Shown here piece after piece: positions 2,585 through 28,754 of a stretch of 49,310 nt of DNA. Under the pieces are notes generated by a model. The model saw only the letters and a program-made list of their open reading frames with translations. It was not told where the DNA came from and did not search any database. The DNA comes from a virus. The translations under genes were made by a program, and so were the position numbers. Where the stretch lies: positions 1-49,310 of the IMG/VR virus record IMGVR_UViG_3300035220_000258; one strand, given 5' to 3'. The first letter of the stretch is position 1. Each line of letters begins with the position of its first letter.

Positions 2585-2604
2585 CGGTTAATATCTCATA
2601 CTCT

Positions 2605-2612
2605 TATTTATC
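2605..2612 (-). promoter_or_regulatory. Late promoter octamer GATAAATA containing the upstream stop codon
   Basis: The TAA of the 2608-3774 gene (2608-2610) is part of the octamer. The final A-B pair of the array starts 20 nt downstream. The Shine-Dalgarno there is weak. Confidence 0.65.
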
Positions 2613-3774: not shown

Positions 3775-3802
3775 TAGTTACTCCGACTATAGTATCTCAT
3801 AA

Positions 3803-3810
3803 TATTTATC
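3803..3810 (-). promoter_or_regulatory. Late promoter octamer GATAAATA containing the upstream stop codon
   Basis: The TAA of the 3806-4912 gene (3806-3808) is part of the octamer. The 2608-3774 gene begins 28 nt further on, after CGGAG. Confidence 0.65.
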
Positions 3811-6974: not shown

Positions 6975-6996
6975 CAGATATTACTCTCCATAGTTA

Positions 6997-7004
6997 TATT
7001 TAGA
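6997..7004 (-). promoter_or_regulatory. Late promoter octamer TCTAAATA containing the upstream stop codon
   Basis: The TAA of the 7000-8154 gene (7000-7002) is part of the octamer. The B-A-B unit starts 22 nt downstream. Confidence 0.6.
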
Positions 7005-8154: not shown

Positions 8155-8156
8155 GA

Positions 8157-9311: not shown

Positions 9312-9313
9312 GA

Positions 9314-10483
9314 TTATAAACCTCCGTGACCATTAGAACAAGATCCATTATTTCCCGCTGCAGCAGTCAAGTTTCCAAAATCAGTTGCATTTCCTGTTGT
9401 TGCGATGGTTACAAACTGTATGGTATCAACATAGGCTGAAACATATCCACCAGAAATAATACCTCTAGTTGAAGATGCAGTTGCGGATCCCTGCAGTTGA
9501 TTAGCTGTTAAATCACCAAAGTCTTGTGCATTACCTGTTGTTGCAATGGTTATGAATTGAATAGTGTTTGTAGGGGTATTTTCATTTCCAGCATATATTC
9601 CACGAGTTGGATTGGATGCAGCTTGACCACTGGAGACTGAGGCAAGTAAATTACCAAAATCTTGTACATTTCCTTGACTAGAAATGGTCACATAGTCAAT
9701 TGTATCATAATAAGTATATGGATCAGTGCCACTTCTTCCCGATAAAAATAATCCACGAGTGCTTGATGCAGTTGCGCTCATGTAATATCTTGCATAAGTT
9801 AAATCACCAAAGTCTTGTGCATTGAAACCTTGAGATGCGATTGTTATATAATCTACATTACTTATTTGAGAACCTGGTGGTTGATATCCTCCAGCAAACA
9901 ATCCGCGAGTTTGATTAGAACATGAACCCAGTCCATATCTTGATGAATCCAAATTACCAAAATCAATTGCATCTCCTGTTGATGCTATTGTGACATAATC
10001 AATTCTATCAGTCTTATTTGGTGAGGTTGGAGAAACTGCACCTCCACCCCATACTCCACGAGTTGATGATGCATGAGAACTTGTCCAATAACGTGCTTCA
10101 GATAAATTACCAAAATCCTGTGCATTTCCAAGAGTTGAGATGGTAAAGTAATCTATTTCTTCTCGTTTGCCTGGATTATAACCACCACCAGTTAATCCAC
10201 GAACACCTGTTCCTTGTGCAGATCTATCTGCTGCTAATGTTTGATTACCAAGTTCTACACTACTTGCCTCAAATTCTAACCATACCAGTCCATTCCAATA
10301 CTCTAAATGTGCAGAGTCGGTATTAAACCGAATGGACCCAGGAGGGCACGCAGAGGGTCTCTGTGCCGTTGTTCCAGTTGGGGGTATAAAATATTGCTGA
10401 CCAGAAAATGTCGTGATTCCAGACAGTACAGGGCCACCAGTATTTGTTTCATTTCCTAAACTGTTGACCCTTATCTCAGACAT
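9314..10483 (-). CDS. Kelch-like six-repeat protein, class AB
   Basis: Putative virion adhesin of 389 aa and the first AB gene after the sulfotransferase cassette. The N-terminus reads IRVNSLGNE, GPVLSGITTF, YFIPPTGTTAQRP (31-43), then IRFNTDSAHLEYWNGLVW (51-68), and the linker at 80-93 is the same as in the 7000-8154 protein. Six repeats follow from about residue 94 (VRGLTGGGY, TRGVWGGGA, TRGLFAGGY, TRGLFLSGR, TRGIYAGNE, TRGIISGGY), closing with SNGHGGL. Blade 3 has an extended ASQGFNAQDFGDL. A GATAAATA octamer 35 nt upstream lies in the 3' end of the sulfotransferase gene. The Shine-Dalgarno sequence is weak. Confidence 0.85.
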   Translation of the reverse strand: MSEIRVNSLGNETNTGGPVLSGITTFSGQQYFIPPTGTTAQRPSACPPGSIRFNTDSAHLEYWNGLVWLEFEASSVELGNQTLAADRSAQGTGVRGLTGGGYNPGKREEIDYFTISTLGNAQDFGNLSEARYWTSSHASSTRGVWGGGAVSPTSPNKTDRIDYVTIASTGDAIDFGNLDSSRYGLGSCSNQTRGLFAGGYQPPGSQISNVDYITIASQGFNAQDFGDLTYARYYMSATASSTRGLFLSGRSGTDPYTYYDTIDYVTISSQGNVQDFGNLLASVSSGQAASNPTRGIYAGNENTPTNTIQFITIATTGNAQDFGDLTANQLQGSATASSTRGIISGGYVSAYVDTIQFVTIATTGNATDFGNLTAAAGNNGSCSNGHGGL

Positions 10484-11278: not shown

Positions 11279-11284
11279 ATTTTA

Positions 11285-12100: not shown

Positions 12101-12105
12101 TTTTC

Positions 12106-12828: not shown

Positions 12829-12829
12829 A

Positions 12830-13818: not shown

Positions 13819-14865
13819 TTACAACCCTCCGTGTGCATTAGAGACACCTGATGGCATCAATGTCGGTCCTGTTAAATCACCAAAATCTACCGCATCACCT
13901 AACGATTGAATTTGGACATACTCAATGGTATTAAGATAATTAGGAGCAGCATATCCACCAGCTATAACTCCACGAGTTGGAGATGTACAGTTTCCATTTA
14001 AGTTATATTTTTCTGAAGATAAATCACCAAAAAATACTGCATTACCTTCTGATGTGAGTTCAACATATTCCATTGAAGACGTTACATTTGGTGCTGGTGC
14101 TTGATATCCACCAGCAAATATTCCACGAGTTGAATTTGATAGACAAGCAATATTTGCTCTTTCTTGGGACAAATCACCAAATTGAGTAGAATCTCCTGTT
14201 GTTGCTATGGTGATATTACCTAGAAATATGGATCCTGCATATGGAGATGGTTTTAAACTTTGATGATAGACACCTCTTGTAGGAGTCATACATGCCGATT
14301 GATAGGTTCCAAGATTTGATGGAGTTAAAGTGCCAAATGTTGATACAGTTCCTGTTGATGCCATGGTAATATAATCAACAGTATTACCAAAAGTACCACC
14401 ACCAGCTATTCCACGAGTAGCATTTGAAAGTCCAAAAGGACCTTGTTTTGCAGAAGAAAGATTGCCAAAATCTGTAAAATTCCCTAATGAACCAAAATTT
14501 ACAAATTCAATAATGTCATAGTTTGCTGGTGCATCTCTTCCTCCTACCCAGAACCCCCTTGTAGATGATCCAAGTGAACTGAGTGATGCTCTTGTTTGTT
14601 GAAGATCGCCAAAATCTTGTGCATTTCCTGTTGATGCAATGTTAATATAATCAATACTTTTTATCTCACCAACCGGTGAGGCTTGTTGCCCACCACCAAA
14701 CAATCCACGAGCACCAGGTTGAGTATCAACACTTCTACCAAGATTTGGTGTGCTTAACTGAAACTCTGCCCACTGTGATCCATCCCAGAGTTCTGGTTTA
14801 TTACTATCAGTATTAAATCGTATTGCGCCTCTTGGGATTTCACCTGATGGGGGAAGATTACTCAT
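13819..14865 (-). CDS. Kelch-like six-repeat protein, class B
   Basis: Putative virion adhesin of 348 aa. The class B start SGEIPRGAIRFNTDS (residues 7-21) is followed by PELWDGSQW (W32) and the linker TPNLGRSVDTQPGARG, nearly identical to that of the 17336-18352 protein. Six repeats begin at about residue 52 (ARGLFGGGQ, TRGFWVGGR, TRGIAGGGT, TRGVYHQSL, TRGIFAGGY, TRGVIAGGY) and end in SNAHGGL. It appears to be a single-gene late unit, with octamer CATAAATA at 14885-14892 and AGAGG before the ATG. The next promoter, for the four-gene insertion, lies in the 59-nt gap after it. Confidence 0.85.
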   Translation of the reverse strand: MSNLPPSGEIPRGAIRFNTDSNKPELWDGSQWAEFQLSTPNLGRSVDTQPGARGLFGGGQQASPVGEIKSIDYINIASTGNAQDFGDLQQTRASLSSLGSSTRGFWVGGRDAPANYDIIEFVNFGSLGNFTDFGNLSSAKQGPFGLSNATRGIAGGGTFGNTVDYITMASTGTVSTFGTLTPSNLGTYQSACMTPTRGVYHQSLKPSPYAGSIFLGNITIATTGDSTQFGDLSQERANIACLSNSTRGIFAGGYQAPAPNVTSSMEYVELTSEGNAVFFGDLSSEKYNLNGNCTSPTRGVIAGGYAAPNYLNTIEYVQIQSLGDAVDFGDLTGPTLMPSGVSNAHGGL

Positions 14866-14884
14866 ATTTTTATACCTCTATGCA

Positions 14885-14892
14885 TATTTATG
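14885..14892 (-). promoter_or_regulatory. Late promoter octamer CATAAATA containing the upstream stop codon
   Basis: The TAA of the 814-aa gene (14888-14890) is part of the octamer. The 13819-14865 gene starts 19 nt downstream after AGAGG. Confidence 0.65.
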
Positions 14893-17332
14893 AGAGACCG
14901 CCATGGGAATCTGAAATACCAGATACAAATGAAGATGCGGTAATCAAATCACCAAATTGTTGACCATCTCCCGTTGATGCGATGTTTACATATTCGATAG
15001 CATTTACATTGCTAGGATTTGCTCCACCAGCAAAAACTCCTCTAATAGAATTAGACATACCTGCACTTCCTCCTCTGGAAGATCCAATTAAATCTCCAAA
15101 ATCTTGTGCATTTCCTGTTGATGATATTGTAACGTAGTCTATTTGATTTGTGGCACCAGGTGCATATCCACCAGCAATTATTGCACGAGTTGATGAATTA
15201 TTTCCAGCCGCAGAATATCCTACACGTAACAAATCACCAAAATCTTGTGCATTTCCTAGTGTTGCAATGGTTACATATGATATTATATTGTGATTATTGG
15301 GAGATGAGTCACTATCTCTACCTCCAGCAAAAATACCTCTGGTTGGTGATGATGCACCCGCAGAATATCTAACGCCTTCAGTTAAATCACCAAAGTCTTG
15401 AGCATTTCCAAAGGTTGCAATAGTCACATAATTAATTTGTAATAATGCGGCATCTGCAGCGGGTGATGATGCTTTATATCCACCAGCAAATAATCCACGA
15501 GTTGATGAGGAACATCCACCCATACCATAAACTGCAGTTTGGGGTATATCCCCAAACTCTTGTGCGTTTCCTGTAGTTGCAATGGTTACGGCATCAATTG
15601 TATTATTTCCTGTGTTTGGAGCGACAAAACCACCAGAAATTAATCCACGAGTCGATGAAGAACAAGAAGCTGTGTAACCTCCCACAGAATATGTCATATC
15701 ACCAAAATCAAGTGCATTTCCCATTGAAGAAATTTGAATATACTCCATTGCCTTACTTACACCACCACTAATTCCACGACCACCAGTTCTGTTTCTATCC
15801 GTTGTTGTTCCCTTTGGTAGTGTCAACCAGTTCTGTGAGACAAATCCTGCTCCACCTTGGAATGTTGGGCCAGCAGTAGGATCTACTTCTCTGGTAAGTC
15901 CTGGTGTGACTGTTGTTGATCCTATTGGACTATCAGTTGCTGTGGGTGTTGGAGAACTTAAACGATCACCATATGCTGCAATGATATGTCTTCCAGTCTT
16001 ATCTGCAAAAATATTCTCTCCATCATAACAGCAGAGAAGAACAGTTTCTGGATGAACTTCTAGTTCTGTTGTTGGTGGTGCAAATTTTGAAGTATAAACT
16101 GCATGTCCTTTACAGACACGAACATTAGAAAGATAGCCATTTACTCCTTGTCCAGCAGATGCCTGATTCCATTTACCAATATTAAAAAAATCATTTACAA
16201 CTGCAGCAGTTCCACTCATCGTGGTTGTATTTTCCAGGGCACCATTGATAAACATCTTAAGAGATGTTCCGTCTTTTATTGCAGCAAGGTGATACCAAGT
16301 GCCGACTACTGGTGTTGTTGAGGAGCTAACTGCCTGCCATGAAGAACCGTTATAGATTGTAAATACAAATTTATTACTTGCTCCACCCACACCAGTGTGG
16401 TTGTAACCAACCCAATATGAACTTTCTACTCCAAGAAATAGATTATTTCCTGGTAAGGAATTATAGTTTATCCAACACTCAAATGTATTACTATCAGCAA
16501 TACGAAAATCAGTGCTTGATGCAATATCTAAACGATCATCAGTCCCATCAAAAAATACTGACCCTGTGTTCTCGGTGATGGTTGAAGTTATATTAGTCTT
16601 ACGGAATAATCCTGGGTTTGCATCTGCTGCTGTTGCATTACCATTAGCAGTAAGTATGTGTCTTCCTGTTGCTTCTGCTGTTGCATCAGTAGAAGATTGG
16701 CAAGCTAAGAGAACAGTTCTGTTATCTGCTGCAGGGAATACGACTCCTTTTGGTGGTGCTGTGTGAACTGGTAATTCTCTGGTTGGTACTGTAAAGTTTC
16801 CAGTGTAAACTGCATGTCCTTTACAGATACGGAGGTTGGAGATGTAACCTTTAAATGATTGAGATCCATCAAGAGATCCAACATATAATGGATTTGACGA
16901 ATTATTATATTGTGATGTTAAATCTGTTTTTTGTACCAAAGCAACACCATTTATGTAACCAGTCAATACTGATCCTTCTTTTACCCAGGCATAATGATTC
17001 CATTTATAAGCAGTTATTACTCCATTAGATGTATTTAAAGCTCCATGTGTACTGCCATCTGTAGACCAATAAAAAGCAGCTTTACCTGAACTATTAACAG
17101 TAACAATATATTCTCTTTGATTACTTGCAGAATTATATTTTGTTACTAACCATGCATCTGAATCAGTTAGAGACAAATTTGCCCAAAACTCAATAGTAAA
17201 ATCTCCAGATGCATCAAAGTCTCCATTATCAGGGACACTCAAGTAATCACCAGTCCCATCAAACTGAACTGACCCAGTAAATTCATCCTTGACTATTGGT
17301 GCTGCAATCTTATCTACTCTTAAATTTGCCAT
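14888..17332 (-). CDS. Kelch-like six-repeat protein, class A, with two LamG-type lectin domains
   Basis: Putative carbohydrate-binding adhesin of 814 aa. It starts NLRVDKI, then has two concanavalin A/LamG-like domains at about 20-190 and 255-430. Both show the DGTGDYL or DGTDDRL start, an FTIEFWANL or TFECWINYN strand and the SNLRICKGHAVYT or SNVRVCKGHAVYT end. A linker containing LPKGTTTDRNRTG replaces PPSGTT. Six repeats run from about 525 (GRGISGGV, TRGLISGGF, TRGLFAGGY, TRGIFAGGR, TRAIIAGGY, IRGVFAGGA) to SDSHGGLS. Blades 3 to 5 match the 21234-24002 protein in register. The start is 3 nt after the stop of the class B gene, with GGAGG at 17343-17347. Confidence 0.85.
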   Translation of the reverse strand: MANLRVDKIAAPIVKDEFTGSVQFDGTGDYLSVPDNGDFDASGDFTIEFWANLSLTDSDAWLVTKYNSASNQREYIVTVNSSGKAAFYWSTDGSTHGALNTSNGVITAYKWNHYAWVKEGSVLTGYINGVALVQKTDLTSQYNNSSNPLYVGSLDGSQSFKGYISNLRICKGHAVYTGNFTVPTRELPVHTAPPKGVVFPAADNRTVLLACQSSTDATAEATGRHILTANGNATAADANPGLFRKTNITSTITENTGSVFFDGTDDRLDIASSTDFRIADSNTFECWINYNSLPGNNLFLGVESSYWVGYNHTGVGGASNKFVFTIYNGSSWQAVSSSTTPVVGTWYHLAAIKDGTSLKMFINGALENTTTMSGTAAVVNDFFNIGKWNQASAGQGVNGYLSNVRVCKGHAVYTSKFAPPTTELEVHPETVLLCCYDGENIFADKTGRHIIAAYGDRLSSPTPTATDSPIGSTTVTPGLTREVDPTAGPTFQGGAGFVSQNWLTLPKGTTTDRNRTGGRGISGGVSKAMEYIQISSMGNALDFGDMTYSVGGYTASCSSSTRGLISGGFVAPNTGNNTIDAVTIATTGNAQEFGDIPQTAVYGMGGCSSSTRGLFAGGYKASSPAADAALLQINYVTIATFGNAQDFGDLTEGVRYSAGASSPTRGIFAGGRDSDSSPNNHNIISYVTIATLGNAQDFGDLLRVGYSAAGNNSSTRAIIAGGYAPGATNQIDYVTISSTGNAQDFGDLIGSSRGGSAGMSNSIRGVFAGGANPSNVNAIEYVNIASTGDGQQFGDLITASSFVSGISDSHGGLS

Positions 17333-17335
17333 GAC

Positions 17336-18352
17336 TTATAATCCTCCGTGTGCATTAGAACATCCTGATCCAATATCTCTCGCCTCGGACAAATCTCCAA
17401 AATCAACTGCATTTCCTTCTGTTGCAATTTCAATCATTTCTATGTCATCTTCATTTGTATCGTCTGTGGATATTAAACCTCTAGTCGGAGATGATACTGC
17501 TCCCATCGTAGAAGTCCCCGCTGTAATCAAATCGCCAAATTTATTTCCATTACCGGTAGATGCAATATTTACATATTCTATATCAGTACATGGAGAAGGT
17601 CCAGTACCACCGGAACAAATTCCTCTGGTTGCGTTTGAACATGCCTGTCCTTCCTGTCCATTGGATCTTGCTAAATCTCCAAAATCTTGGGAATCTCCAA
17701 GAGTTGCGATGGTGACAAATTGTATGGTCTTTAAAACTGTTGGAGTATATCCTCCAAAAAATAGTCCCCTAACTTGTCCCGATGTCGCACAAAGACTTGC
17801 TGTTGCTGTTTCTAAATTACCAAAATTTACTGAATCACCAGTGGATGCAATTGTAATATAATCTATTCCAGCTGTTTTACTTGAAGATGCTGCGGGATTT
17901 CCTCCACCAAATACTCCACGAGTTTCATTACAAACAGCACCATAAGTAGCTTTAGAATCAATTTGCTCACCAAAATCAGTTTGACTTCCGGTTGACGCAA
18001 TAGTGACAAAATCTATTGTGCTGTTAATTGCAGGATCAAGTCCGCCTGCCCATACTCCCCTTGTTCTGGATGCTACTGCACCAGATACCCATCTCCTTGC
18101 TTCTGTTAGATTTCCAAAGTCAATTGCATTTCCTGTAGAAGAGATATTTACATAGTCAATGACATCCGATATTGCATTAGGACCAGTGAGTTGTCCACCA
18201 CCAAATAATCCACGAGCACCAGGAGTTGAGTCAACACTCCTTCCAAGATTGGGAGTATCGGTAGACATCACCCACCATTCTCCCTGAGCATAAAACTCTA
18301 GCCTCTGGGAGTCGGTATTAAATCTGATTGCACCTTGTGGGATTTCGGACAT
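17336..18352 (-). CDS. Kelch-like six-repeat protein, class B
   Basis: Putative virion adhesin of 338 aa. The class B N-terminus is very short: SEIPQGAIRFNTDSQRLEF (2-20), EWW (25-27), TPNLGRSVDSTPGARG. Six repeats start near residue 46 (ARGLFGGGQ, TRGVWAGGL, TRGVFGGGN, VRGLFFGGY, TRGICSGGT, TRGLISTDD) and end in SNAHGGL. The last blade has lost the double glycine (STDDTNEDDIEMIEI). It heads a two-gene late unit with the LamG protein, behind octamer GATAAATA at 18372-18379. The leader (AGAGGTATAAAAATATG) is almost the same as that of the 13819-14865 gene. Confidence 0.85.
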   Translation of the reverse strand: MSEIPQGAIRFNTDSQRLEFYAQGEWWVMSTDTPNLGRSVDSTPGARGLFGGGQLTGPNAISDVIDYVNISSTGNAIDFGNLTEARRWVSGAVASRTRGVWAGGLDPAINSTIDFVTIASTGSQTDFGEQIDSKATYGAVCNETRGVFGGGNPAASSSKTAGIDYITIASTGDSVNFGNLETATASLCATSGQVRGLFFGGYTPTVLKTIQFVTIATLGDSQDFGDLARSNGQEGQACSNATRGICSGGTGPSPCTDIEYVNIASTGNGNKFGDLITAGTSTMGAVSSPTRGLISTDDTNEDDIEMIEIATEGNAVDFGDLSEARDIGSGCSNAHGGL

Positions 18353-18371
18353 ATTTTTATACCTCTTTCAT

Positions 18372-18379
18372 TATTTATC
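18372..18379 (-). promoter_or_regulatory. Late promoter octamer GATAAATA containing the upstream stop codon
   Basis: The TAA of the 602-aa gene (18375-18377) is part of the octamer. The 17336-18352 gene starts 19 nt further on. Confidence 0.65.
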
Positions 18380-20183
18380 CGAGACCGCCATGACCACTGG
18401 AAACAGTTCCATTATTCATCTGGAATCTAGCAACTGTTATATCACCAAAATCTGTTGCATTTCCAGTTGATGCGATAGTAAATAGATGAATTTTTGCAAA
18501 TGCAGTATTACTTACTGGTTGATCATTTCCACCACCAGCATAAAGTCCTCTTGTAGGTGATGCTGCAGTTGCACCCAACCTCATTCCATTACTATTATCC
18601 AAATCACCAAAATTTATTGCATTTCCAGTGGTTGCAATTTGAATAAAATCAACGGTATTTGTGAAAGATGGTGATGCTGGCAATTCACCACCTAAGTATA
18701 ACCCTCTTGTTGCACTTGAAAGTGAAACAATTCCAGATCTTGCTATTGTTAAATCACCAAAATCAAATGCATTACCCATTGTCATGATAGTAACATACTG
18801 CATGGTATTAAGTCTTGTGGGAGCTTCACCACCTGCCATCACACATCTTGTGGGAGATGCTGTTCCGGTTACTTGACCCAAACCATCTACCATATCACCA
18901 AAATCTTTTGAGTCTCCTGTTGATGCAATTGTAATATATTCGATCGTATTTGTTAAACCACTGGAACCAAAAGATAATCCTCTTGTAGAATTTGATGATC
19001 CACCTATAGAGTGTTTTGCACTAGTTAAATTGCCAAAGTCTTGTGCATTTCCTGTTGATGCAATGGTTACATAATCAATAACATCAACAGCTGCTGGATC
19101 TGAAAATCCACCCATTCTAACTCCACGAGTTGTAGAAGAACAACTAGATGATATTCTTGTTGCTGCAGTTAAATTGCCAAAATCCACTGCATTACCAGTT
19201 GATGTAATTGTTACGTAGTCCATTACATCTTGGACTGATCCAGGAGCTGAACTAAGTCCACCCATAAAAACACCACGAGCAGCACTAACAGCATTACTGG
19301 CAACATTGACATATTGCTGTTCTGTCGTGCCTGATGGTGGAACAAAATATCCTTGAGTATCAAATACTGTGACACCACTGAACTCTGTGCCACCTGTGAA
19401 GTCTCTGGTGAGTGGTGGAGAAAATGTTGATGCTCTAATGTCGATTCCAGTGATGGTGATAATCTTTCCTGTTGCTTCTGCTTTTGCAGTAGGGTCGAAC
19501 GCATTTCCGGTAGTGTCTGAGTTATTGCAACAGAGTAATACAGTACCTCCAATGACTTCTAGTGCATGAACTGGTGGTGTGAAGTCTGATGTATAAAGTC
19601 TGCGTCCGGCAACAACTCTCAAGTTAGAGATGTAACCATTCATGAAGTTACTATTACCATGTATATTTTTTCCAACAGTAAATGGATATGAACTGTTGGA
19701 AGATGAATAATTTGCAGCAGCAAAAGTTCCACTTACAGTTCCGGCGTCATTATCTACTTCTCTTCCATCAACATACAATGCTAATGTTTTATCACTTGAT
19801 TTAAATACTGCTGCAATATGATGCCATGTATTTACCGCAAGACAATTATTTGCTCCCCAACCGATATAATTTCCTGCTGCACCTCTACCAACTAAAGCAA
19901 ATACTCCTGTAGCATCAGATTGAGCATCAGCTGCAGACATAATCTGAAGATAAAATCCTGTTTGAAGACTACTTCCTGTAGTGCCCCAAACAAATTGTCT
20001 AGTTGCAGTGCCTGTATATGCCCAGAATTCTACAGTCCAATCGGTGGCACCATTGTGAAGAAAATTAAAATCTCCTGCAGAACCAATGGATAAATTATCT
20101 CCATTTCCAGGAAAACTCACAGACCCTGTGACTGGTGTGGGTGTTTCTAACCCTGAGATTTTATCGGTGCGTAATATTCCCAT
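18375..20183 (-). CDS. Kelch-like six-repeat protein, class A, with one LamG-type lectin domain
   Basis: Putative carbohydrate-binding adhesin of 602 aa. It opens ILRTDKISG, then a LamG-like domain occupies about residues 17-215 (GSVSFPGNGDNLS start, WTVEFWAY strand, GYISNLRVVAGRRLYT end). A class A segment GYFVPPSGTTEQQ follows at about 283-295. Six repeats run from about 305 (ARGVFMGGL, TRGVRMGGF, TRGLSFGSS, TRCVMAGGE, TRGLYLGGE, TRGLYAGGG) to the closing SSGHGGLG. The ATG overlaps the stop of the preceding class B gene by 1 nt, with GGAGG at 20190-20194. The stop TAA lies in the GATAAATA octamer of the next unit. Confidence 0.85.
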   Translation of the reverse strand: MGILRTDKISGLETPTPVTGSVSFPGNGDNLSIGSAGDFNFLHNGATDWTVEFWAYTGTATRQFVWGTTGSSLQTGFYLQIMSAADAQSDATGVFALVGRGAAGNYIGWGANNCLAVNTWHHIAAVFKSSDKTLALYVDGREVDNDAGTVSGTFAAANYSSSNSSYPFTVGKNIHGNSNFMNGYISNLRVVAGRRLYTSDFTPPVHALEVIGGTVLLCCNNSDTTGNAFDPTAKAEATGKIITITGIDIRASTFSPPLTRDFTGGTEFSGVTVFDTQGYFVPPSGTTEQQYVNVASNAVSAARGVFMGGLSSAPGSVQDVMDYVTITSTGNAVDFGNLTAATRISSSCSSTTRGVRMGGFSDPAAVDVIDYVTIASTGNAQDFGNLTSAKHSIGGSSNSTRGLSFGSSGLTNTIEYITIASTGDSKDFGDMVDGLGQVTGTASPTRCVMAGGEAPTRLNTMQYVTIMTMGNAFDFGDLTIARSGIVSLSSATRGLYLGGELPASPSFTNTVDFIQIATTGNAINFGDLDNSNGMRLGATAASPTRGLYAGGGNDQPVSNTAFAKIHLFTIASTGNATDFGDITVARFQMNNGTVSSGHGGLG

Positions 20184-21211
20184 TATAGACCTCCGTGGGC
20201 ATTAGAGCAGGCAGCAAGTCCTTTTTTTACTGCATCCAAATTACCAAAATCTACTGCATTACCTTCTGTTGCAATAATAATATAGTCTATTACGTCTGAT
20301 TTGGATGGAGTTATGCCACCACCAAAGACACCGCGAGTACTAGAAGAACAAGCGGAACCGATTGATCTTGTTACTGATAAATCACCAAACTCAACCGCAT
20401 CGCCACCGGATGCAATGGTAACATATTCTATTGTGTTTATTATAGTTGGAGTTTCGCCACTACCCATGATACCACGAGTGCTTGAAGAGCAACTCATTCC
20501 AGAATTTCTTGCTACAGTTAAATTACCAAAGTCTTGTGCATTTCCTAATGTTGCTGTGGTGATAAATTCTATTTTACTTACTTTACTTGGATTTATTCCA
20601 CCAGAAAATAATCCACGAGTTGGTGATGCTGCTATACCACTAAACAAATATCCTTTTACTTCAGTCAAGTTACCAAAATCTTCTGCATGTCCAGTTGACG
20701 CAATGGTAACATAATCCATTGTGTCAACTTTAGATGGAGAAAAACCACCAGCCCAAACACCGCGAGTGGCTGAAGAAGTAGCACCAGTTCCATATCTTCC
20801 CGTGAACAAGTTTCCAAAGTCAATAGCATTTGCACTAGATGCGATTGTAATAAAATCAATAGTGTCTGTCATAGGGTCGCCACCCCCAGTAACACCACGA
20901 GTGCTGGAGGAGACGGATTGTGGATATTGGACTTTTAATGTCCTATCGCCAAAATCTACTGCATTTCCTGTAGATGAAATGTTTATGTATTCTATTACAT
21001 TCAGTCTTGTTGGTGTTTCTCCCCCTTGAAAAATACCACGAGCACCAGGAGTTGGATCACTAGCATTAGGAGCAACAGTAAGCGGCCCGCCAACGTTTGC
21101 AAGATTTGGTGTTGCAGTATGAACCTGAAACCATGCCGAGCCATTCCAATACTCCAACTTCTGTGAGTCGGAGTTAAATCTCATTGCACCTGCTGGAATC
21201 TCTGCTGACAT
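20183..21211 (-). CDS. Kelch-like six-repeat protein, class B
   Basis: Putative virion adhesin of 342 aa. The class B module is EIPAGAMRFNSDSQKLEYWNGSAW (residues 4-27), followed by a slightly longer linker TPNLANVGGPLTV...TPGARG. Six repeats begin at about 58 (ARGIFQGGE, TRGVTGGGD, TRGVWAGGF, TRGLFSGGI, TRGIMGSGE, TRGVFGGGI) and close with SNAHGGL. Most blades carry the short P-[ST]-[KR]-x-[DNS] loop after the double glycine. First gene of a two-gene unit with the single-LamG protein; octamer GATAAATA at 21231-21238 and AGAGG precede the ATG. Confidence 0.85.
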   Translation of the reverse strand: MSAEIPAGAMRFNSDSQKLEYWNGSAWFQVHTATPNLANVGGPLTVAPNASDPTPGARGIFQGGETPTRLNVIEYINISSTGNAVDFGDRTLKVQYPQSVSSSTRGVTGGGDPMTDTIDFITIASSANAIDFGNLFTGRYGTGATSSATRGVWAGGFSPSKVDTMDYVTIASTGHAEDFGNLTEVKGYLFSGIAASPTRGLFSGGINPSKVSKIEFITTATLGNAQDFGNLTVARNSGMSCSSSTRGIMGSGETPTIINTIEYVTIASGGDAVEFGDLSVTRSIGSACSSSTRGVFGGGITPSKSDVIDYIIIATEGNAVDFGNLDAVKKGLAACSNAHGGL

Positions 21212-21230
21212 GTTACACTACCTCTGTCAT

Positions 21231-21238
21231 TATTTATC
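21231..21238 (-). promoter_or_regulatory. Late promoter octamer GATAAATA containing the upstream stop codon
   Basis: The TAA of the 922-aa gene is part of the octamer. The class B gene start is 19 nt downstream with AGAGG between them. Confidence 0.65.
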
Positions 21239-24002
21239 CAAGACCGCCATGGGAGTCTGAACATCCACAAGCTGCAGACATGGTAGACATTAAATCACCA
21301 AAGTTTAATGCATCTCCTGTTGATGCAATTGTAATATAATCGATGTGGTTTGTAGCAGCGGGTATACTGTTGCCACCAGCAAATGTTGCTCTAGTGGAAT
21401 TTGAACTAGCAGCAATGCCTCCCCTTCCTACTGTTAAATTGCCAAAATCCTGTACATTTCCTGTTGATGCTATTGTGACATATTCTATATTATCATATGC
21501 AGCATTTCCGGCTGAATTATAACCACCAGTAAATATTCCACGAGTTGATGAACCAGTTCCCATTGCAGTATATGGTGTATATGAAAGGTCACCAAAATCC
21601 AGTGCATTTCCAAGAGTTGCAATGGTTACATAATGTATATCATTTTGATTATAGACAGGAGCATCAGCACTATCTCTACCTCCAGCAAATAAACCACGAG
21701 TTGGCGATGATGTTGCTGCAGGGTATCTAACACCATTTCCAGTCAAATCACCAAAATCTTGAGAATCACCCAATGATGCGATAATCACATAATTAATTTG
21801 CTTTAATCCAGCAGCTGCGTTTGGTGAAGGTGCTGTGAATCCACCAGCAAATAATCCACGAGTTGATGAGGAACATCCACCCATACCGTAAATAAATGAT
21901 GCGCTTGTTGTTATATCCCCAAAGTCTTGTGCGTTTCCTGTTGTTGCAATGGTTACATAATCAATTGTTTTGTAATAACTTGGATGATCATATCCCTGAG
22001 AAAACAATCCACGAGTTGATGATGCACAGGCAGAGGTGTTTTGTGCAGCAGCTGTCGCATCACCAAAATCTTGTGAGTTTCCTAGAGATGAAATAGTGAT
22101 ATAATTTATAGCATTATCTGCCATTCTAATGAGACCACGACCACTACGACTATCTCTAGTTACCGTATCACCAGTTGGGAGATAGAAATAAGCATCTGTG
22201 TTTATTTTGGTGACACCCTCAAAGGTTATTTGTCTATCATCACCGACTTGTGGTGTGAAGTTTGATGCTGGTGCATCTGCGTCATGAGGAATGGCATATG
22301 CAGAAACATAACCGATTGTTGAATTTGCTCCAGAGGTCTGTAATGATATTGTTGATGTTGTGGATGATGCTGTAAAAATATGTTGCTGTCTACCTATTGA
22401 AGTGACCAAGTAAAAAACATCACCACCTTGTGCCGACCATCCACTGGAGTATACAGCAATACCAGGAGTTCCAGCATCCGATATAATATCAACTATCAAT
22501 GCATATCTTTGTCCAACTACTGTTGCAATTGCTTGGTTCGCAGAACTATACGAGCCAGCATTCGCAGTAATAAGCATATTTCCACTAGACGAAGAAAGTG
22601 TCGCATTTTGTCCAGTCCATCCACTCACATCACTAATAAAAGTTCCACCAGTAACCAGTTCAGGACCATCTGTTCTTTGCAAACTTCCATAACCCGCAAT
22701 AGTCTTCCCAGTTGCTTCTGTGAGTGGATTATCAGGATCTTGGCAAGCTAAAAGAACAGTGCCTGGAACTCTTTTGAGTTCTCTGGTTGGTGGGATGAAG
22801 TCTGCTGTATAGAGTGCAGTGCCTTTGTTTATACGGAAGTTGGAGATGAAACCTTTGTAACGATATAAAGTTGCGGCAAAATTAGTTGCAGGTTGACCAA
22901 CTGTTGCTCCTTGGTCTGTATAGTCAGTAGAACCTGTGTTTATACTTCCAGAAACTTTTACTCCATTAAGAAATACATATCCATTACTTCCATTTCTTAC
23001 AACTGCAAAGTGATGCCATTCTCCGTGCTTAGGAATCCCATAATTTGTAGCTCCGGTTGAACTAGGGAATCCATAAGTGTACAAATTATCATCACTGTTG
23101 ATGCCGATAAAAAGTCCAGTGCTTTGATTATCACTATTTCTACTATCAAAAAGTGTTCTAATTGCTGCAGTATCTGAAACATTAAACCATCCTTCAATCG
23201 TAAAATTACCTGTTCCAAATGCAAAGTCTGTGGACTTAGAAAGAACTAAACCATCTCCAGTCCCATCAAACTCAACAGACCCGGTGATTGCACTACCACC
23301 ACCAGACTTCACAATAGGTGTCAGAATACCAGGAGTGAGTTCACTTGCAACTGCATTTCCGGTGACTGTGATAGTCTTACCAGTCTTTTCAAGTGATGCA
23401 TCAGTCTTTGATTGACAAGCAAGAAGAACAGTCTCTGGTGTAACTTCAAGTTCTCTCATTGGGGGCTTGAAGTTTGATGTATAGAGTGCTTTGCCTTTGA
23501 TTATACGAACATTAGAGATGTGTCCATCAAAATCTGTATTATAACTTGAACCAATTCTCAATCCATCATTAGTATTAGTATAAATGGCACTAGAATCATA
23601 TCGTGACCCTACTTTTTTCCCATCCAAATAAATTGTATATTCTAAATCTTTTCGTATAACTGCATAGTGATGCCAAGTATTTAAAGATATGATGCCATCT
23701 ACACTATCAATTGATACCCCTCCTGTTCCACTAGATGAGAACAAAAATTGCATGGATTCAGTTTGGTCCTTTCTTAATGCAAAAGTTCTTCTGTTATCTC
23801 CAGTATTATAAATTCCTAAAATATCATCCGTTCCTTCATCAAATGCTAATGCCCAACATTCAATGGTAAAATCACCAGACCCAAATTGAAAGTCACTAGA
23901 GACAGCAAGACTTAAATAATCTCCACTACCATCAAACTGAACCGAACCAGTCTTTTCAAAGGTTTCTGTACTTGTAATCTTGTCTACTCTTAAGTTTGCC
24001 AT
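21234..24002 (-). CDS. Kelch-like six-repeat protein, class A, with two LamG-type domains and a CBM-like domain
   Basis: At 922 aa this is the largest propeller paralog. After NLRVDKITS come two LamG-like domains at about 15-190 and 240-415 (GSVQFDGSGDYL and GSVEFDGTGDGL starts; SNVRIIKGKALYT and SNFRINKGTALYT ends). A third beta-rich domain at about 445-565 (ELVTGGTFISDVSGWTG start) looks like a carbohydrate-binding jelly roll. The class A remnant is FYLPTGDTVTRDS. Six repeats start near 625 (GRGLIRMAD, TRGLFSQGY, TRGLFAGGF, TRGLFAGGR, TRGIFTGGY, TRATFAGGN) and end in SDSHGGLG. It starts 1 nt after the stop of an AB gene, with GGAGG at 24011-24015. Confidence 0.85.
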   Translation of the reverse strand: MANLRVDKITSTETFEKTGSVQFDGSGDYLSLAVSSDFQFGSGDFTIECWALAFDEGTDDILGIYNTGDNRRTFALRKDQTESMQFLFSSSGTGGVSIDSVDGIISLNTWHHYAVIRKDLEYTIYLDGKKVGSRYDSSAIYTNTNDGLRIGSSYNTDFDGHISNVRIIKGKALYTSNFKPPMRELEVTPETVLLACQSKTDASLEKTGKTITVTGNAVASELTPGILTPIVKSGGGSAITGSVEFDGTGDGLVLSKSTDFAFGTGNFTIEGWFNVSDTAAIRTLFDSRNSDNQSTGLFIGINSDDNLYTYGFPSSTGATNYGIPKHGEWHHFAVVRNGSNGYVFLNGVKVSGSINTGSTDYTDQGATVGQPATNFAATLYRYKGFISNFRINKGTALYTADFIPPTRELKRVPGTVLLACQDPDNPLTEATGKTIAGYGSLQRTDGPELVTGGTFISDVSGWTGQNATLSSSSGNMLITANAGSYSSANQAIATVVGQRYALIVDIISDAGTPGIAVYSSGWSAQGGDVFYLVTSIGRQQHIFTASSTTSTISLQTSGANSTIGYVSAYAIPHDADAPASNFTPQVGDDRQITFEGVTKINTDAYFYLPTGDTVTRDSRSGRGLIRMADNAINYITISSLGNSQDFGDATAAAQNTSACASSTRGLFSQGYDHPSYYKTIDYVTIATTGNAQDFGDITTSASFIYGMGGCSSSTRGLFAGGFTAPSPNAAAGLKQINYVIIASLGDSQDFGDLTGNGVRYPAATSSPTRGLFAGGRDSADAPVYNQNDIHYVTIATLGNALDFGDLSYTPYTAMGTGSSTRGIFTGGYNSAGNAAYDNIEYVTIASTGNVQDFGNLTVGRGGIAASSNSTRATFAGGNSIPAATNHIDYITIASTGDALNFGDLMSTMSAACGCSDSHGGLG

Positions 24003-24003
24003 C

Positions 24004-25377
24004 TTAGAAACCTCCTAATCCACCGTGTGAGTCTGAACAACCACCTGGTGTGCCAGTTGCCAGATATAAATCTCCAAAGTCCTGTGCATCACCAGTAGAT
24101 GTAATATTTACATACTCAATTGAATTTAGTACGGATGGATTAAGACCTCCTGCCATAACACCTCTTGTATTTGTCGAACTTGAAGCAGGTCTTGCTCTTA
24201 TTGTGGATAACGATCCAAAATCAACAGCATTTCCTTCTGATGCAATAGTAATGTAATCTATTACATTTAAAAGTGCTGGAGTTTGTCCACCAGAAAAACA
24301 TCCACGAACATTGTTAGAAAATGATCCACCAGCACAATTTCTTCTTGCTGTGGTTAAATCACCAAAAAATACTGCATTGCCTTTAGCAGCAATGTTAACA
24401 AAATCAATAACACTTCTATTTGGGGTATTGCCTCCTCCCCAAACTGCTCTTACTCCATTTGAGACAGCACCAGCAGAATATCTACCTACAAATAAATTTC
24501 CAAAATCAAGTGCATTTCCTTTAGTTGACATTTCAATATAATCAATTATGTCTACGGTTGCAGGCGATGGAGATGTAGTGTAACCACCACCAAATATACC
24601 ACGAGTTGATGAGGAAGTTGCTCCCATATATGCTCTATTTGCTGTTGACAACTGACCAAAATCAATTGAATTTCCTGCTGATGCAATAGTTACATATTCG
24701 ATAATGTCACTATAAGATCCAGCTGCTCCGCCAGCCCATATGCCACGAATTGCTGATGAGCAGGATGATATATTACCTTTAGCTAAAGTGAGATCTCCAA
24801 AATATTCAGAATTTCCAAATGTATTAATATTAAAGTATTGAATTACATTAGTATAACCTGGAGTAACTCCACTACCAAGCACCATGCGACCAGCGGCACC
24901 ACCATGATATCTGGCATATGAATTTACTGTCTTCCAATTATTTCCATCAAAGAACTCAAGTGTTCCGAAGTCTTGGTTGAATCTAGTTGTTCCTGCTTCT
25001 GGTGTATTGTCTCTACTATTTGTATCACCAAGAGGAACAGCAAACTTATTAGTAACTGTGAGTGTCTTTGTCTTTCCTACTTCTACTGTTGAACCAGATG
25101 ATACTGTTGTCTCTCCAGTAATTCTAATCTCACCGGATAGAGAACTGAAAGGACCACTAGAACCATTATCAATTAATACATTATTAGCAATATTGCTTTG
25201 TGTTTGGTGAAAACCTTGATACTCTCTGAAGGTTGATACTCCACCACTACCAGCAGTATTGTCCGCAAGAATCTGTCCAGCAACATCTACGCGAGCAGTT
25301 GGATTTGTGGTGCCGATTCCAACCTGCTCACCTACTAAATTAAAATCAGTTGATAGACCAATTCTTATACTTGGCAT
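24004..25377 (-). CDS. Kelch-like six-repeat protein, class AB, with VGIGTTNP virion-type N-terminus
   Basis: Putative virion adhesin of 457 aa. The first 60 residues (SIRIGLSTDF, VGIGTTNPTARVDVAG) resemble the openings of the large fibre proteins upstream. Residues 78-120 (SLSGEIRITGETTV... FAVPLGDTNSRD) form the class A part, and TTRFNQDFGTLEFFDGNNW (130-148) the class B part. Six repeats run from about 163 (AGRMVLGSG, IRGIWAGGA, TRGIFGGGY, VRAVWGGGN, VRGCFSGGQ, TRGVMAGGL) to SDSHGGLGGF. The ATG overlaps the stop of a possible 10-codon mini-ORF that bridges it to the upstream gene. A late octamer lies 18 nt upstream. Confidence 0.85.
   Translation of the reverse strand: MPSIRIGLSTDFNLVGEQVGIGTTNPTARVDVAGQILADNTAGSGGVSTFREYQGFHQTQSNIANNVLIDNGSSGPFSSLSGEIRITGETTVSSGSTVEVGKTKTLTVTNKFAVPLGDTNSRDNTPEAGTTRFNQDFGTLEFFDGNNWKTVNSYARYHGGAAGRMVLGSGVTPGYTNVIQYFNINTFGNSEYFGDLTLAKGNISSCSSAIRGIWAGGAAGSYSDIIEYVTIASAGNSIDFGQLSTANRAYMGATSSSTRGIFGGGYTTSPSPATVDIIDYIEMSTKGNALDFGNLFVGRYSAGAVSNGVRAVWGGGNTPNRSVIDFVNIAAKGNAVFFGDLTTARRNCAGGSFSNNVRGCFSGGQTPALLNVIDYITIASEGNAVDFGSLSTIRARPASSSTNTRGVMAGGLNPSVLNSIEYVNITSTGDAQDFGDLYLATGTPGGCSDSHGGLGGF
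24011..24015 (-). promoter_or_regulatory. Shine-Dalgarno GGAGG inside GGF codons
   Basis: In this gene the HGGL codons read GGT-GGA and give a weaker site. The extra GGF codons (GGA-GGT-TTC) supply GGAGG 8 nt before the ATG of the 922-aa gene. Confidence 0.75.
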
Positions 25378-25409
25378 TATACTACAACTTTCTTATATTT
25401 ATCAAACAT
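25377..25409 (-). other. Possible 10-codon mini-ORF linking two propeller genes
   Basis: On the minus strand ATG (overlapping the upstream TGA as TGATG) opens MFDKYKKVVV and ends in TAA, which overlaps the next ATG as TAATG. GGAGG at 25416-25420 is well placed in front of it. It may serve only as a re-initiation bridge, or be chance. Confidence 0.35.
25396..25403 (-). promoter_or_regulatory. Late promoter octamer GATAAATA
   Basis: Lies 18 nt upstream of the 24004-25377 gene and inside a possible 10-codon mini-ORF. It would start a unit of an AB gene followed by the largest class A gene. Confidence 0.6.
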
Positions 25410-27256
25410 CAGAAACCTCCTAGTCCGCCGTGAGAGTCTGATACTGAACCAGTCATATATCCTTTTTCCCTGTAAAGATCTCCAAAATCTAGACTATCAC
25501 CTAAGGATGCAAAGTTAACATAATCAATTTCTGTATGATGAACCGGATATGAAGATCCGCCTGTCCAGATGCCTCTTGTTGATGTTGAAGAAGCACCAAT
25601 ATAGGTTCTGCTTCCCATCGTTAAGGTGCCAAATTGAATAGCATTACCGGTTGATGCGATTGTAACATATGTCATTGCTCTAGCAGCCTCTCCTCTTTCG
25701 GCCGCAGACCCACCAAGAGTGGGTGCAATATATCCTCCTGCCCAGCACCCTCTTATCCCATTACCACATCCATTTCCAGTTATTCTAGCTACAGAGTCTT
25801 CACCAAAATCAACTGCATTTCCCTTTGATGCAAATGTGGAATAATCAAGTGTTCCGACAGATAGACCTGTCCATGCTGGATGAGAATAATCATCACCAGA
25901 TCCAAATACACCACGAGTTGGAGAACTAATACCACCAGATGCAGATCTCTCATTAGTTAAGTCCCCAAAATCCAGTGCAGCACCAAGAGTTGATATTTGA
26001 ATATAATCTATATCATTGGTAGAATTAACGGCGGGAGTGGGGGTAGCACCACCAGCAAACAAACCACGAGTTGACGATGATGCTGATGCAAAAGCATTTC
26101 TTCCTACGGTCAAATTTCCAAAATCTATTCCATTTCCTTCTGATGCTATTGTAATATAATCCATATCAACCCGTCTTCCAGCATTATATCCACCAGCAAA
26201 TACACCACGAACTTGACTACCTACACCTTGTTTATCTGTAGTTTCATCATTCGCTAGATCTCCAAAGTAAGTTGCATTCCCTCTTGTGTGAATTTGGATA
26301 AGCATCATATCTTTGGTGCGACCATTGCCAGTTATATAACCACCAGCAAATACTGCACGACCACTTCTGGTTGTATTATCTACCTGTCTCCAACCATAAC
26401 CATCAAAGAACTCAATAGTCTTGAAGTCATAGTTATAGTATAACTGTCCTGGTTTTGGTGCATATGGTCTCTCATTTGTTCCACCGTTTGGAGGTGTGAA
26501 AGTATTGAAGACTTTCAGACACTCAATCTCACTTCCACCTGCTCTAGCACCTTTATCTACTAAAGTTGAAAAACCATCAACTAAAATCTCTCCATCAACT
26601 TCAATAGCATTAATAGCACTTAGTGAACCTTGGGTATATTGAACATCAATCGTATTAATTAATCCAGAACCAGTAGCAATTGTCATCCACTGACCAACTG
26701 TTGGAGCACCAATATTAAAAATATATGTGCCACCATTAAGTCTCGCTTTATGTCCCGATGTTCTTAACCAAATGCGAACTCTGTTTTTATATTGTATTGG
26801 AGTTGGTGGTGTAAATGTAAATACTGCTTCATTTACACTTGACATACAATATGTGGTAACGTCACCATCAAAAGCTTTTGATGCCTCATAATTACTTGTG
26901 AAACCACCAGTAGAAACAGTTAAAAAATTACTCCAAACAGTTCCATTATTAGCATTGGCGAATTCATCTTCTACCTTACTAACAGTAACAGTAACACCAG
27001 TTCCTACAATAATCTCACCAGAAAGTGATGAAACCGGACCTTGATCAAAAGTCAGGGTTGTGTTCTCTGTAATCTGGTGGTCTGCTCTCAGGAATCCTTC
27101 ATATGCAGTAAGAGAAGATATTCCAGTAACTTTAAGGTCTTGACCTTTTACAACACCTGCAACATCTAAATTCTGTTGTGGTTCAGTGGTATTAATACCA
27201 ACACCACTATTCTTAATTACAAAATCGTCGGAATAACCTCTTCTTATACTTGCCAT
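25409..27256 (-). CDS. Kelch-like six-repeat protein, class AB, with discoidin-like domain
   Basis: Putative carbohydrate-binding adhesin of 615 aa. It opens SIRRGYSDDF and VGINTTEPQQNLDVAG. A discoidin (F5/8 C)-like domain appears inserted at about residues 100-228, with NYEASKAFDGDVTTYC, RIWLRTSG and IEVDGEILVDG. Then come the class A part (FTPPNGGTNERP at 253-264) and the class B part (LYYNYDFKTIEFFDGYGW at 272-289). Six repeats begin near 298 (GRAVFAGGY, VRGVFAGGY, TRGLFAGGA, TRGVFGSGD, IRGCWAGGY, TRGIWTGGS) and end in SDSHGGLGGF. It starts 1 nt after the upstream stop, with GGAGG at 27265-27269 in the GGF codons of that gene. Confidence 0.85.
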   Translation of the reverse strand: MASIRRGYSDDFVIKNSGVGINTTEPQQNLDVAGVVKGQDLKVTGISSLTAYEGFLRADHQITENTTLTFDQGPVSSLSGEIIVGTGVTVTVSKVEDEFANANNGTVWSNFLTVSTGGFTSNYEASKAFDGDVTTYCMSSVNEAVFTFTPPTPIQYKNRVRIWLRTSGHKARLNGGTYIFNIGAPTVGQWMTIATGSGLINTIDVQYTQGSLSAINAIEVDGEILVDGFSTLVDKGARAGGSEIECLKVFNTFTPPNGGTNERPYAPKPGQLYYNYDFKTIEFFDGYGWRQVDNTTRSGRAVFAGGYITGNGRTKDMMLIQIHTRGNATYFGDLANDETTDKQGVGSQVRGVFAGGYNAGRRVDMDYITIASEGNGIDFGNLTVGRNAFASASSSTRGLFAGGATPTPAVNSTNDIDYIQISTLGAALDFGDLTNERSASGGISSPTRGVFGSGDDYSHPAWTGLSVGTLDYSTFASKGNAVDFGEDSVARITGNGCGNGIRGCWAGGYIAPTLGGSAAERGEAARAMTYVTIASTGNAIQFGTLTMGSRTYIGASSTSTRGIWTGGSSYPVHHTEIDYVNFASLGDSLDFGDLYREKGYMTGSVSDSHGGLGGF

Positions 27257-27257
27257 C

Positions 27258-28754
27258 TTAGAAACCTCCTAGTCCACCGTGTGAGTCTGAAGTGCCCGCA
27301 AAACCCTTTCTTATATTAGATAGATCACCAAAATCTAGTGCATTTCCACCTTCGGATATAAGTATAGTTTCAATACTGGAAAGAATTGTTGGGGTATATC
27401 CACCAGCAAACACACCTCTAATTGAGTTTGATGCTGCGGCGGCCGACATCCTAGCAACTGCCAGATCACCAAAATAAGTTGCATTTCCTTCTGAAGCAAT
27501 ATTTATGTATGAAATCTCGGCTCTCTCCCCACTTGCACTACCATCTTGATTACCTCCAGCAAATATACCCATAATAGGGTTAGAGCATCCTGCTTGCCCA
27601 TAACCTCGAAAACTGAGTTCTCCAAATCTAACTGTATTTCCTTTACTTGCAATAGTTAAAGACTCAATTACTGATTGAGCAACACTACCAAAACCACCCG
27701 CATATATTCCTCTTGTTGGAGAACTACAATCACCACCAGATCTTCTAGTAGTAGTTACATCACCAAAGTCCAGTGCGTTTCCAAGAGTTGGTAATTCAAC
27801 ATAATCTATTGTATTAATATTAGCACTAGTGCTAGTTTTATATCCTCCAAGATTTACTCCTCTAGTGGAAGATGATACTGCATTATAAACAATTCTTCCA
27901 CTATCAGTTAAATTGCCAAAATCTATGGCATTTCCTGTTGATGCTATTGTTATATAATCCATTCTATCAAGTTGACCTGGATTTCTACCACCAGAAAATA
28001 ATCCTCTTGTGGATGAAGAACAACTACCAGGACTTTCTGTTATTCCTACCAAATCACCAAAGTCCAGTGCATTACCAAAAGTTGATATTTGAACATATTC
28101 TATCGTATTTACTATAGCGGGAGTCACTCCACCACCAAATACTGCACGACCACTTTGCTGACTATAAGTGAATTGTTTCCACTCATTTCCATTGAAGAAC
28201 TCAAGTGTGTTCAGGTCAGTATTAAATCTTACGGTTCCTTCTATTGGATTATCTTTTCTATCATTGCTTCCACCATTTGGAACAGAGAAGTGTCCAGTGA
28301 CTGATACTTGTTCCAGTGATCCTGCACAAACATATGATGAGTGACTGTGTGGGTCATACTCACCGATGGTTGTTCTACCAACCATCTCTGTGTTGGTAAT
28401 ATTTAAAATCTGACCCTCATCAATCACCAGATCTTCAGAAAGTGTATTAAATCTTTGATCATCTCCATGATGAACACCACCTAGATCAGTGAATCCTGTC
28501 TCGGTTTCATAGTATTGAGTTAATGTTCCTACACTATTAGTGGTTGCAAAACCAATTGCTGATGGTTTATTGACATGCTGATTCTGTGCAATAAAACCAC
28601 CATAAGATGTTAATGTTGTAACACCAGTGATATTAAAATCTGCTTTGGCAGTTTCCGAAACCTCTAGGAGAGCAGTCGGATTTGCAGTTCCAATTCCAAT
28701 TTTAGAATCTGATACCTTAAAATCAGAACCAAAACCAACTCGTATCGTTGCCAT
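27258..28754 (-). CDS. Kelch-like six-repeat protein, class AB, first gene of the array
   Basis: Putative virion adhesin of 498 aa. The N-terminus has TIRVGFGSDFK and IGIGTANPTALLEV. A region without recognised domain (about 60-150, with a His-rich GGVHHGDDQ and DPHSHSS) follows. The class A part is FSVPNGGSNDRKD (156-168) and the class B part TVRFNTDLNTLEFFNGNEW (174-192). Six repeats start at about 202 (GRAVFGGGV, TRGLFSGGR, TRGVNLGGY, TRGIYAGGF, IMGIFAGGN, IRGVFAGGY) and end in SDSHGGLGGF. It is transcribed first, just after the 1063-aa fibre gene, from octamer TCTAAATA at 28778-28785 with GGAGG before the ATG. Confidence 0.85.
   Translation of the reverse strand: MATIRVGFGSDFKVSDSKIGIGTANPTALLEVSETAKADFNITGVTTLTSYGGFIAQNQHVNKPSAIGFATTNSVGTLTQYYETETGFTDLGGVHHGDDQRFNTLSEDLVIDEGQILNITNTEMVGRTTIGEYDPHSHSSYVCAGSLEQVSVTGHFSVPNGGSNDRKDNPIEGTVRFNTDLNTLEFFNGNEWKQFTYSQQSGRAVFGGGVTPAIVNTIEYVQISTFGNALDFGDLVGITESPGSCSSSTRGLFSGGRNPGQLDRMDYITIASTGNAIDFGNLTDSGRIVYNAVSSSTRGVNLGGYKTSTSANINTIDYVELPTLGNALDFGDVTTTRRSGGDCSSPTRGIYAGGFGSVAQSVIESLTIASKGNTVRFGELSFRGYGQAGCSNPIMGIFAGGNQDGSASGERAEISYINIASEGNATYFGDLAVARMSAAAASNSIRGVFAGGYTPTILSSIETILISEGGNALDFGDLSNIRKGFAGTSDSHGGLGGF

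Follow-up and report, generated by a model that had tools for sequence, protein, structure and literature searches.

How do marine cyanophages keep pace with hosts that alter their surface? The question is open, and the fiber proteins of these viruses are mostly unannotated. Here, we analyze a locus in which binding-type domains are inserted into an array of propeller genes, and ask which parts of the encoded proteins are constant and which are exchanged. The locus lies in a 49,310-base IMG/VR virus record (the window), whose minus strand carries nearly all of its genes and whose high-coordinate end is occupied by long structural genes. The first 500 residues of the product of the 42783-48959 gene are 74% identical to a fiber gene of Synechococcus phage S-SM2 (Kyanoviridae), and the gene matches 460 phage records, which by name are all cyanophage or marine virus records. 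The window is therefore assigned to a T4-like marine cyanophage. In sister contigs, gene N-termini inspected by eye presumably belong to psbA, psbD, and transaldolase.

Below the long structural genes lie 18 propeller genes (window 312-28754). We numbered their slots in the order of transcription, from S1 (27258) to S18 (312). Four non-propeller genes (10487-13759) break the array after S9. The slots are syntenic across the sister arrays compared, which are a handful and all metagenomic fragments. The proteins start with a socket of type A, B, or AB, and the slots that frame those discussed below are as follows.

27258..28754, minus strand: slot S1, AB socket and propeller, recognized by a propeller profile built from the window
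24004..25377, minus strand: slot S3, AB socket and propeller, recognized by the same window-built profile
20183..21211, minus strand: slot S5, B-type socket and propeller; its propeller shares 87% identity with the S18 propeller of sister G007
17336..18352, minus strand: slot S7, B-type socket and propeller; in L124 and L127, its B half and the S6 A half form one gene
13819..14865, minus strand: slot S9, B-type socket and propeller; in L124 and L127, its B half is joined with an A half in one gene
312..10483, minus strand: distal slots S10-S18, propeller genes without a LamG in the window according to profile searches

The first-pass annotation placed two, one, and two LamG-like domains in the 14888, 18375, and 21234 genes, respectively, and profile searches bear it out. 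Five domains exceed the curated cut-off of Laminin_G_3 (PF13385, 27.6 bits) with scores of 50-73 bits: two in 14888-17332, one in 18375-20183, and two in 21234-24002. The profile search of the window genes found none over the cut-off elsewhere in the window.

23496..23933, minus strand: LamG domain 1 of the 21234 gene (S4), 73.1 bits, AlphaFold2 model mostly at pLDDT 82-97
22830..23267, minus strand: LamG domain 2 of the 21234 gene (S4), 55.7 bits, 85% identity to its counterpart in sister G001
19611..20054, minus strand: single LamG of the 18375 gene (S6), 50.3 bits
16823..17260, minus strand: LamG domain 1 of the 14888 gene (S8), 72.7 bits, replaced relative to sister G002, with DNA ~40% identical between conserved flanks
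16112..16549, minus strand: LamG domain 2 of the 14888 gene (S8), 70 bits, 94% identical to G002

The five LamG domains are only 31-40% identical to one another. The N-terminal part of the 21234 protein, modeled using AlphaFold2, is composed of two LamG β-sandwich folds with pLDDT mostly between 82 and 97. Among the matches listed in a fold search of this model, which LamG-type folds fill, the PAPP-A N-terminal domain scores highest (Z 23). A putative carbohydrate-binding protein of Bacteroides (4dqa, Z 21) and pentraxins (Z ~20) score slightly lower, and laminin and neurexin LG domains and CBM40 (Z 17) are also matched. Judging from the predicted folds, it is plausible that the LamG inserts bind sugars. 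Virion proteins of cyanophages (PHROGs 3545, 24074, 8510, and 13163) contain homologous LamG modules, often in tandem. A LamG-kelch fusion like that of the window genes was not seen in cultured phages.

The 21234 gene additionally encodes a jelly roll that had been called CBM-like. The name is supported indirectly, by homology; the domain itself has no Pfam match in the profile search.

22281..22694, minus strand: CBM_4_9-like jelly roll of the 21234 gene (S4), identified from homology to CBM_4_9-scoring domains and from its presence or absence; model pLDDT ~55-82

The domain aligns with four sister-phage domains, one of which, located in slot S6 of G002, scores over the cut-off as CBM_4_9 (PF02018, 30.9 bits, cut-off 25.9). 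Its nearest match is the insert in slot S2 of G001 (48% over 63 residues), and its identity to the copy in the same slot (S4) of G001 is 28%.

A further insert is present in the 25409 gene.

26576..26971, minus strand: slot S2 insert, a recurrent phage 'AFDG...VDGxILVD' domain, discoidin-like at most, with homologs in S-BM3 and a Krakvirus 'putative lectin'

The insert is characterized by the motif WS...AFDG...VDGxILVD. It follows an N-terminal stretch ending in SGEIIVGTGVTVTV and precedes the AGGSEIECLKVFNTFTPPSGGT segment, just ahead of the AB region. It had been described as discoidin-like; a real, recurrent phage domain is there, but the discoidin name is not confirmed, as the profile search gave no Pfam match for the insert, and F5_F8_type_C (PF00754) was seen for one of its eight homologs, with an E-value of 0.059. 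A locus scan with the insert alone matched only a flank, in G001. For the CBM-like and AFDG domains, searches of Pfam, PHROG, and PDB sequences gave nothing firm, and the matches in an NCBIfam profile search were all far below the cut-off. Proteins of Synechococcus phage S-BM3 and of a Krakvirus (the 'putative lectin') contain tandem repeats related to the AFDG domain (L202:8001-9233, L203:4858-7218).

The propellers of the four genes with inserts are located at the C-termini.

25418..26371, minus strand: kelch-type propeller of S2, six blades in the model, pLDDT mostly >90, Z ~36-38 to kelch domains
21237..22154, minus strand: kelch-type propeller of S4, from the window-built propeller profile
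18378..19289, minus strand: kelch-type propeller of S6, from the window-built propeller profile
14891..15796, minus strand: kelch-type propeller of S8, from the window-built propeller profile

The modeled S2 propeller is formed by six four-stranded blades and resembles Keap1, KLHL, and designed kelch proteins over ~280 residues; among the matches listed for the slot S2 model, all are kelch. The Kelch profiles stay under their cut-offs (Kelch_1 16.6 bits, cut-off 20.1; Kelch_4 15.9 bits, cut-off 21.6), and we therefore speak of a kelch fold outside those Pfam families. In the aligned propellers, variation is strong in loops 2-3 (2.4 bits) and 4-1 (3.1 bits) and slight in loops 1-2 (1.4 bits) and 3-4 (1.3 bits). 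Kelch domains expose loops 2-3 and 4-1 on one face and loops 1-2 and 3-4 on the opposite one. The location of the variable loops on one face suggests that the propeller has a single variable, host-facing side.

The inserts had been thought to sit on a constant propeller scaffold. The comparison of sister arrays reverses this picture, since the propellers are the parts exchanged most. The best match lies in the same slot of a sister for 62 of 63 sockets and for 19 of 63 propellers, with ~7 expected by chance. Sockets are mostly 76-100% identical between sisters, and same-slot propellers have a median identity of ~47%, close to the 44% of propeller paralogs within one genome. The genes between the array halves are 89-98% identical among sisters, with the exception of 11285 (69%). 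Propeller pairs exceeding 60% identity between genomes comprise ten from the same slot and nine from different slots. The latter include, besides window S5 and G007 S18 (87%), the pairs of window S9 and G001 S5 (83%), G004 S17 and G007 S14 (87%), and window S3 and G003 S2 (78%). The main long blastn match of the different-slot pairs is restricted to the propeller. In the sequences compared, the constant parts are the short N-terminal socket and the linkers around each LamG, not the propeller.

The A-type socket follows the pattern M-x-x-LR-x-D-x-ISG... then (T)-x-F-x-G...-LP-x-GTT. The LamG blocks of S4, S6, and S8 split the socket between its two pieces, just ahead of the PPSGTT-like strand.

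23952..24002, minus strand: first half of the S4 A socket, which shares 92-95% identity with G001; L127 has the empty form
22155..22226, minus strand: second half of the S4 A socket (TFEGVTKINTDAYFYLPTGDT); empty form in L127
20130..20183, minus strand: first half of the S6 A socket, from comparison with sisters; empty form in L127
19314..19388, minus strand: second half of the S6 A socket (TEFSGVTVFDTQGYFVPPSGTT); empty form in L127
17276..17332, minus strand: first half of the S8 A socket, from comparison with sisters; empty form in L131
15794..15868, minus strand: second half of the S8 A socket (PTFQGGAGFVSQNWLTLPKGTT); empty form in L131

The filled form of S6 in the 18375 gene, MGILRTDKISGLETPTPV-LamG-TEFSGVTVFDTQGYFVPPSGTT, can be compared with the empty S6 socket of L127, MGILRTNKISGLGTDG/TVFQGVTRFDTQGYFVAPSGTT, where the slash separates the two pieces. 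The empty socket of S4 in L127 reads MANLRADTISGVGSGG/VTFEGVTKINTQNYFYLATGTT, and that of S8 in L131 reads MAILKVDTISGIGTEG/PVFEGDIEFTSQNFLTLPKGDT. The insertion point was proposed to be preserved, and it is: the three genes share one point, and relatives retain its empty forms. A second insertion site, between A and B, is occupied by a LamG in L130.

In L124 and L127, a single gene fuses the A socket of S6 with the B socket of S7 (the best match of B is S7, 70%), and in the following gene an A socket is joined to the B socket of S9 (64%). By this comparison, the A-only and B-only neighbors in the window resemble an AB socket that has been cut in two, with a propeller separating the pieces. 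Seemingly, a propeller and a gene break either entered at the junction of A and B or were lost from it. The splitting of an AB socket into halves would explain the alternation of A and B genes. If true, it predicts that neighboring A and B proteins still assemble jointly.

The slots are filled differently in sister phages. Slot S2 has no insert in G003, G005, G006, L124, and L127, and is filled with a LamG in G002, a CBM-like domain in G001, and the AFDG domain in the window. Slot S4 carries no LamG in L127 and L128, one Pfam LamG in L131 and L124, and two in the window, G001, G002, G004, and G006; its CBM-like domain is present in the window, G001, and G002, and absent from G004 and G006. Slot S6 is without LamG in L124 and L127, has one in the window, G001, G004, G006, and L131, and holds CBM_4_9 together with a LamG in G002. 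Slot S8 has no LamG in L124, L127, and L131, one in G004 and G006, and two in the window and G002. A phylogeny built from the conserved 12830 gene places L124 and L126-L128 as the sister group of the window's clade and L129-L131 outside, with only moderate support for the in-group rooting. The simpler reading of slot S8 would be that LamG was gained in the clade of the window.

The restriction of lectin-type domains to the proximal half, claimed in the first-pass annotation, holds within the window but not in its relatives. A distal LamG is present in slot S14 of G002, in the corresponding slot of L130, and in the slot after S15 of L124 and L126-L128, where it takes the place of the propeller at the C-terminus. 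As far as these arrays go, the rule of the family is that proximal slots accept an insertion ahead of the propeller, and distal slots have the propeller substituted.

The exchange is visible inside single genes at the DNA level. Between S8 of the window and that of G002, the A socket is 95% identical, the interior of LamG 1 ~40%, the linker 78-98%, LamG 2 83-100%, the second half-socket 95-97%, and the propeller mostly 40-70%. Between S4 of the window and that of G001, the corresponding values are 92% for the socket, 40-60% for LamG 1, 78-85% for the linker, 83-97% for LamG 2, 35-63% for the CBM-like domain, 93-75% for the half-socket, and ~37-68% for the propeller. Nearly identical and unrelated blocks alternate within a single gene, and their edges coincide with domain borders. 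The S5 genes of G000 and G004 are 100% identical over 155 nt around the gene start and 91% identical again at the gene end, and blastn gave no long match between them through the propeller. Among all the loci compared, no donor of the replaced LamG cores was identified; the best non-orthologous match there is ~45%. Modular acquisition at a preserved point, as originally suggested, is strongly supported both by these mosaic edges and by the same slots being empty or otherwise filled in independently assembled sisters.

We consider it likely that the region is a host-recognition island of a T4-like marine cyanophage, with 18 fixed-slot, fiber- or baseplate-associated adhesins that combine slot-specific sockets with exchanged kelch heads and binding-type inserts. 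The short N-terminal socket of each slot, whether A, B, or AB, probably anchors the protein to the tail or baseplate of the virion, and the C-terminal six-bladed kelch propeller probably touches the host. LamG, CBM_4_9-like, and other binding-type domains are lodged at one fixed position within the A socket (slots 4, 6, and 8) or at the pre-AB site (slot 2). The mosaic edges suggest that conserved sockets, linkers, and gene ends serve as homology arms for homologous recombination. The exchanged blocks may be drawn from a pool common to co-infecting phages and transferred between phages or slots. Their folds suggest that they bind host-surface glycans or proteins, and their turnover would be driven by selection for new host contacts.

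More tentatively, and with slightly less than even confidence, we propose that the island works as a multi-slot system for exchanging adhesins. Slots and co-infecting cyanophages would trade kelch heads and lectin-type inserts through ~18 constant landing sockets, giving each particle a many-part, rapidly recombining host-contact set. A propeller landing in an AB socket would give rise to an A gene and a B gene, the products of which may still co-assemble.

The inserts may also have no ligand of their own. LamG and CBM domains could be structural spacers or oligomerization units that set the reach of the propeller and turn over neutrally. We regard this as unlikely, though it fits the variation of LamG copy number from 0 to 2 within one slot and the long tandem runs that LamG modules with similar linkers form in other marine phage proteins. 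For a simple spacer, there would be no need to replace whole LamG cores while keeping the flanks. The relationship of the folds to pentraxins, the Bacteroides putative carbohydrate-binding protein, and CBM40 also speaks against a spacer, as does the ability of a LamG to stand as the terminal domain instead of the propeller.

In-place hypermutation, for example by a diversity-generating retroelement, or fast divergence without recombination could place variable positions in the propeller loops, as is seen here. Nevertheless, it is a very improbable source of the mosaic, as the replaced cores differ at ~60% of all bases between conserved flanks, and near-identical propellers occur in other slots. 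Furthermore, no reverse transcriptase (PF00078) was found in the window or in seven sister records, which are fragments, and this argues against a diversity-generating retroelement. There is a similarly slight chance that the mosaic reflects chimeric metagenome assembly, given that all the arrays are metagenomic and such repeats are hard to assemble. However, the open frames are intact, the domain edges are respected, the gene order recurs in independent samples, and the match of slot S3 to G002 runs across the whole gene at 89%. Least probable of all is plain gene duplication, in which the LamG genes of the window would be recent paralogs that brought their LamGs along without any acquisition: the propellers of the 21234 and 14888 genes are indeed the most similar pair in the window (63%), but the five LamGs have diverged to 31-40% mutual identity and the slots predate the split of the sister phages. 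For S4, S6, and S8, duplication was rejected because the same slots are empty in relatives.

The proposed island of fixed sockets and exchangeable parts has counterparts among known systems. Modular phage tailspikes have a conserved N-terminal anchor and an exchangeable receptor-binding domain, and their conserved flanking DNA was proposed to contain recombination hotspots (PMC10408124). The window proteins similarly have a constant anchor and a swapped C-terminal head. Unlike the tailspikes, they are encoded in one array with ~18 sockets, their heads are kelch propellers that move between slots and phages, and a second group of domains within the socket is also exchanged. Virions of lactococcal phages display CBM-type bricks on structural proteins, two of which were shown to bind host cells (PMC6669499). 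The window likewise has CBM-like bricks on putative structural proteins; the proteins and the host are different. The host recognition cluster of pelagimyophages and cyanomyophages is a hypervariable structural island of T4-like marine phages with tail-fiber genes, glycosyltransferases, and concanavalin-type domains in some structural proteins, and its divergence was read as gradual (PMC7029224), whereas the region in the window shows block exchange within fixed slots. Synechococcus phage S-SKS1 resembles the window in having several kelch-type propeller ORFs beside a sulfotransferase gene, but its propellers are ~27% identical, the genes are few, and the LamGs are in separate genes. No description of a kelch-propeller array in a cyanophage was found in the literature, with most subscription papers outside the search. 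Modular receptor-binding proteins are already known; the fixed-socket array, the slot-hopping kelch heads, and the second level of exchange inside the socket were not found described in the papers searched.

Fixed sockets with exchangeable heads provide a concrete, testable scheme, and the exchange of whole blocks looks like a built-in way to keep altering the grip of the virus. The sockets offer a handle to find and sort heads in metagenomes. Should the LamG and CBM inserts prove to bind glycans, one could read from their turnover which sugars on the host surface the phages target.

The number of slots varies among sister lineages, as S7 and S9 are not separate genes in L124 and L127. The A-only and B-only neighbors of the window (17336-20183 and 13819-17332) correspond there to single fused AB genes (L127:7684-9945).

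Inside the array, 10487-11278 and 12106-12828 encode a sulfotransferase (PF13469) and a conserved protein, which are 89-98% identical between sisters. By its sequence, the conserved protein looks like a small glycosyltransferase. The pair might modify the fibers or the host surface. The 12830-13759 gene is conserved and is 79-97% identical in sister arrays. In many other contigs of marine phages, propeller genes also lie close to its distant relatives (~55%), and a scan of bacterial genomes with it gave one locus. Its product is a candidate assembly factor. The distal propeller genes 2608-3774 and 312-1514 start with long glycine/serine-rich stretches (MGYGGGGSGGGG...), as do the genes in the same slots of sister phages.
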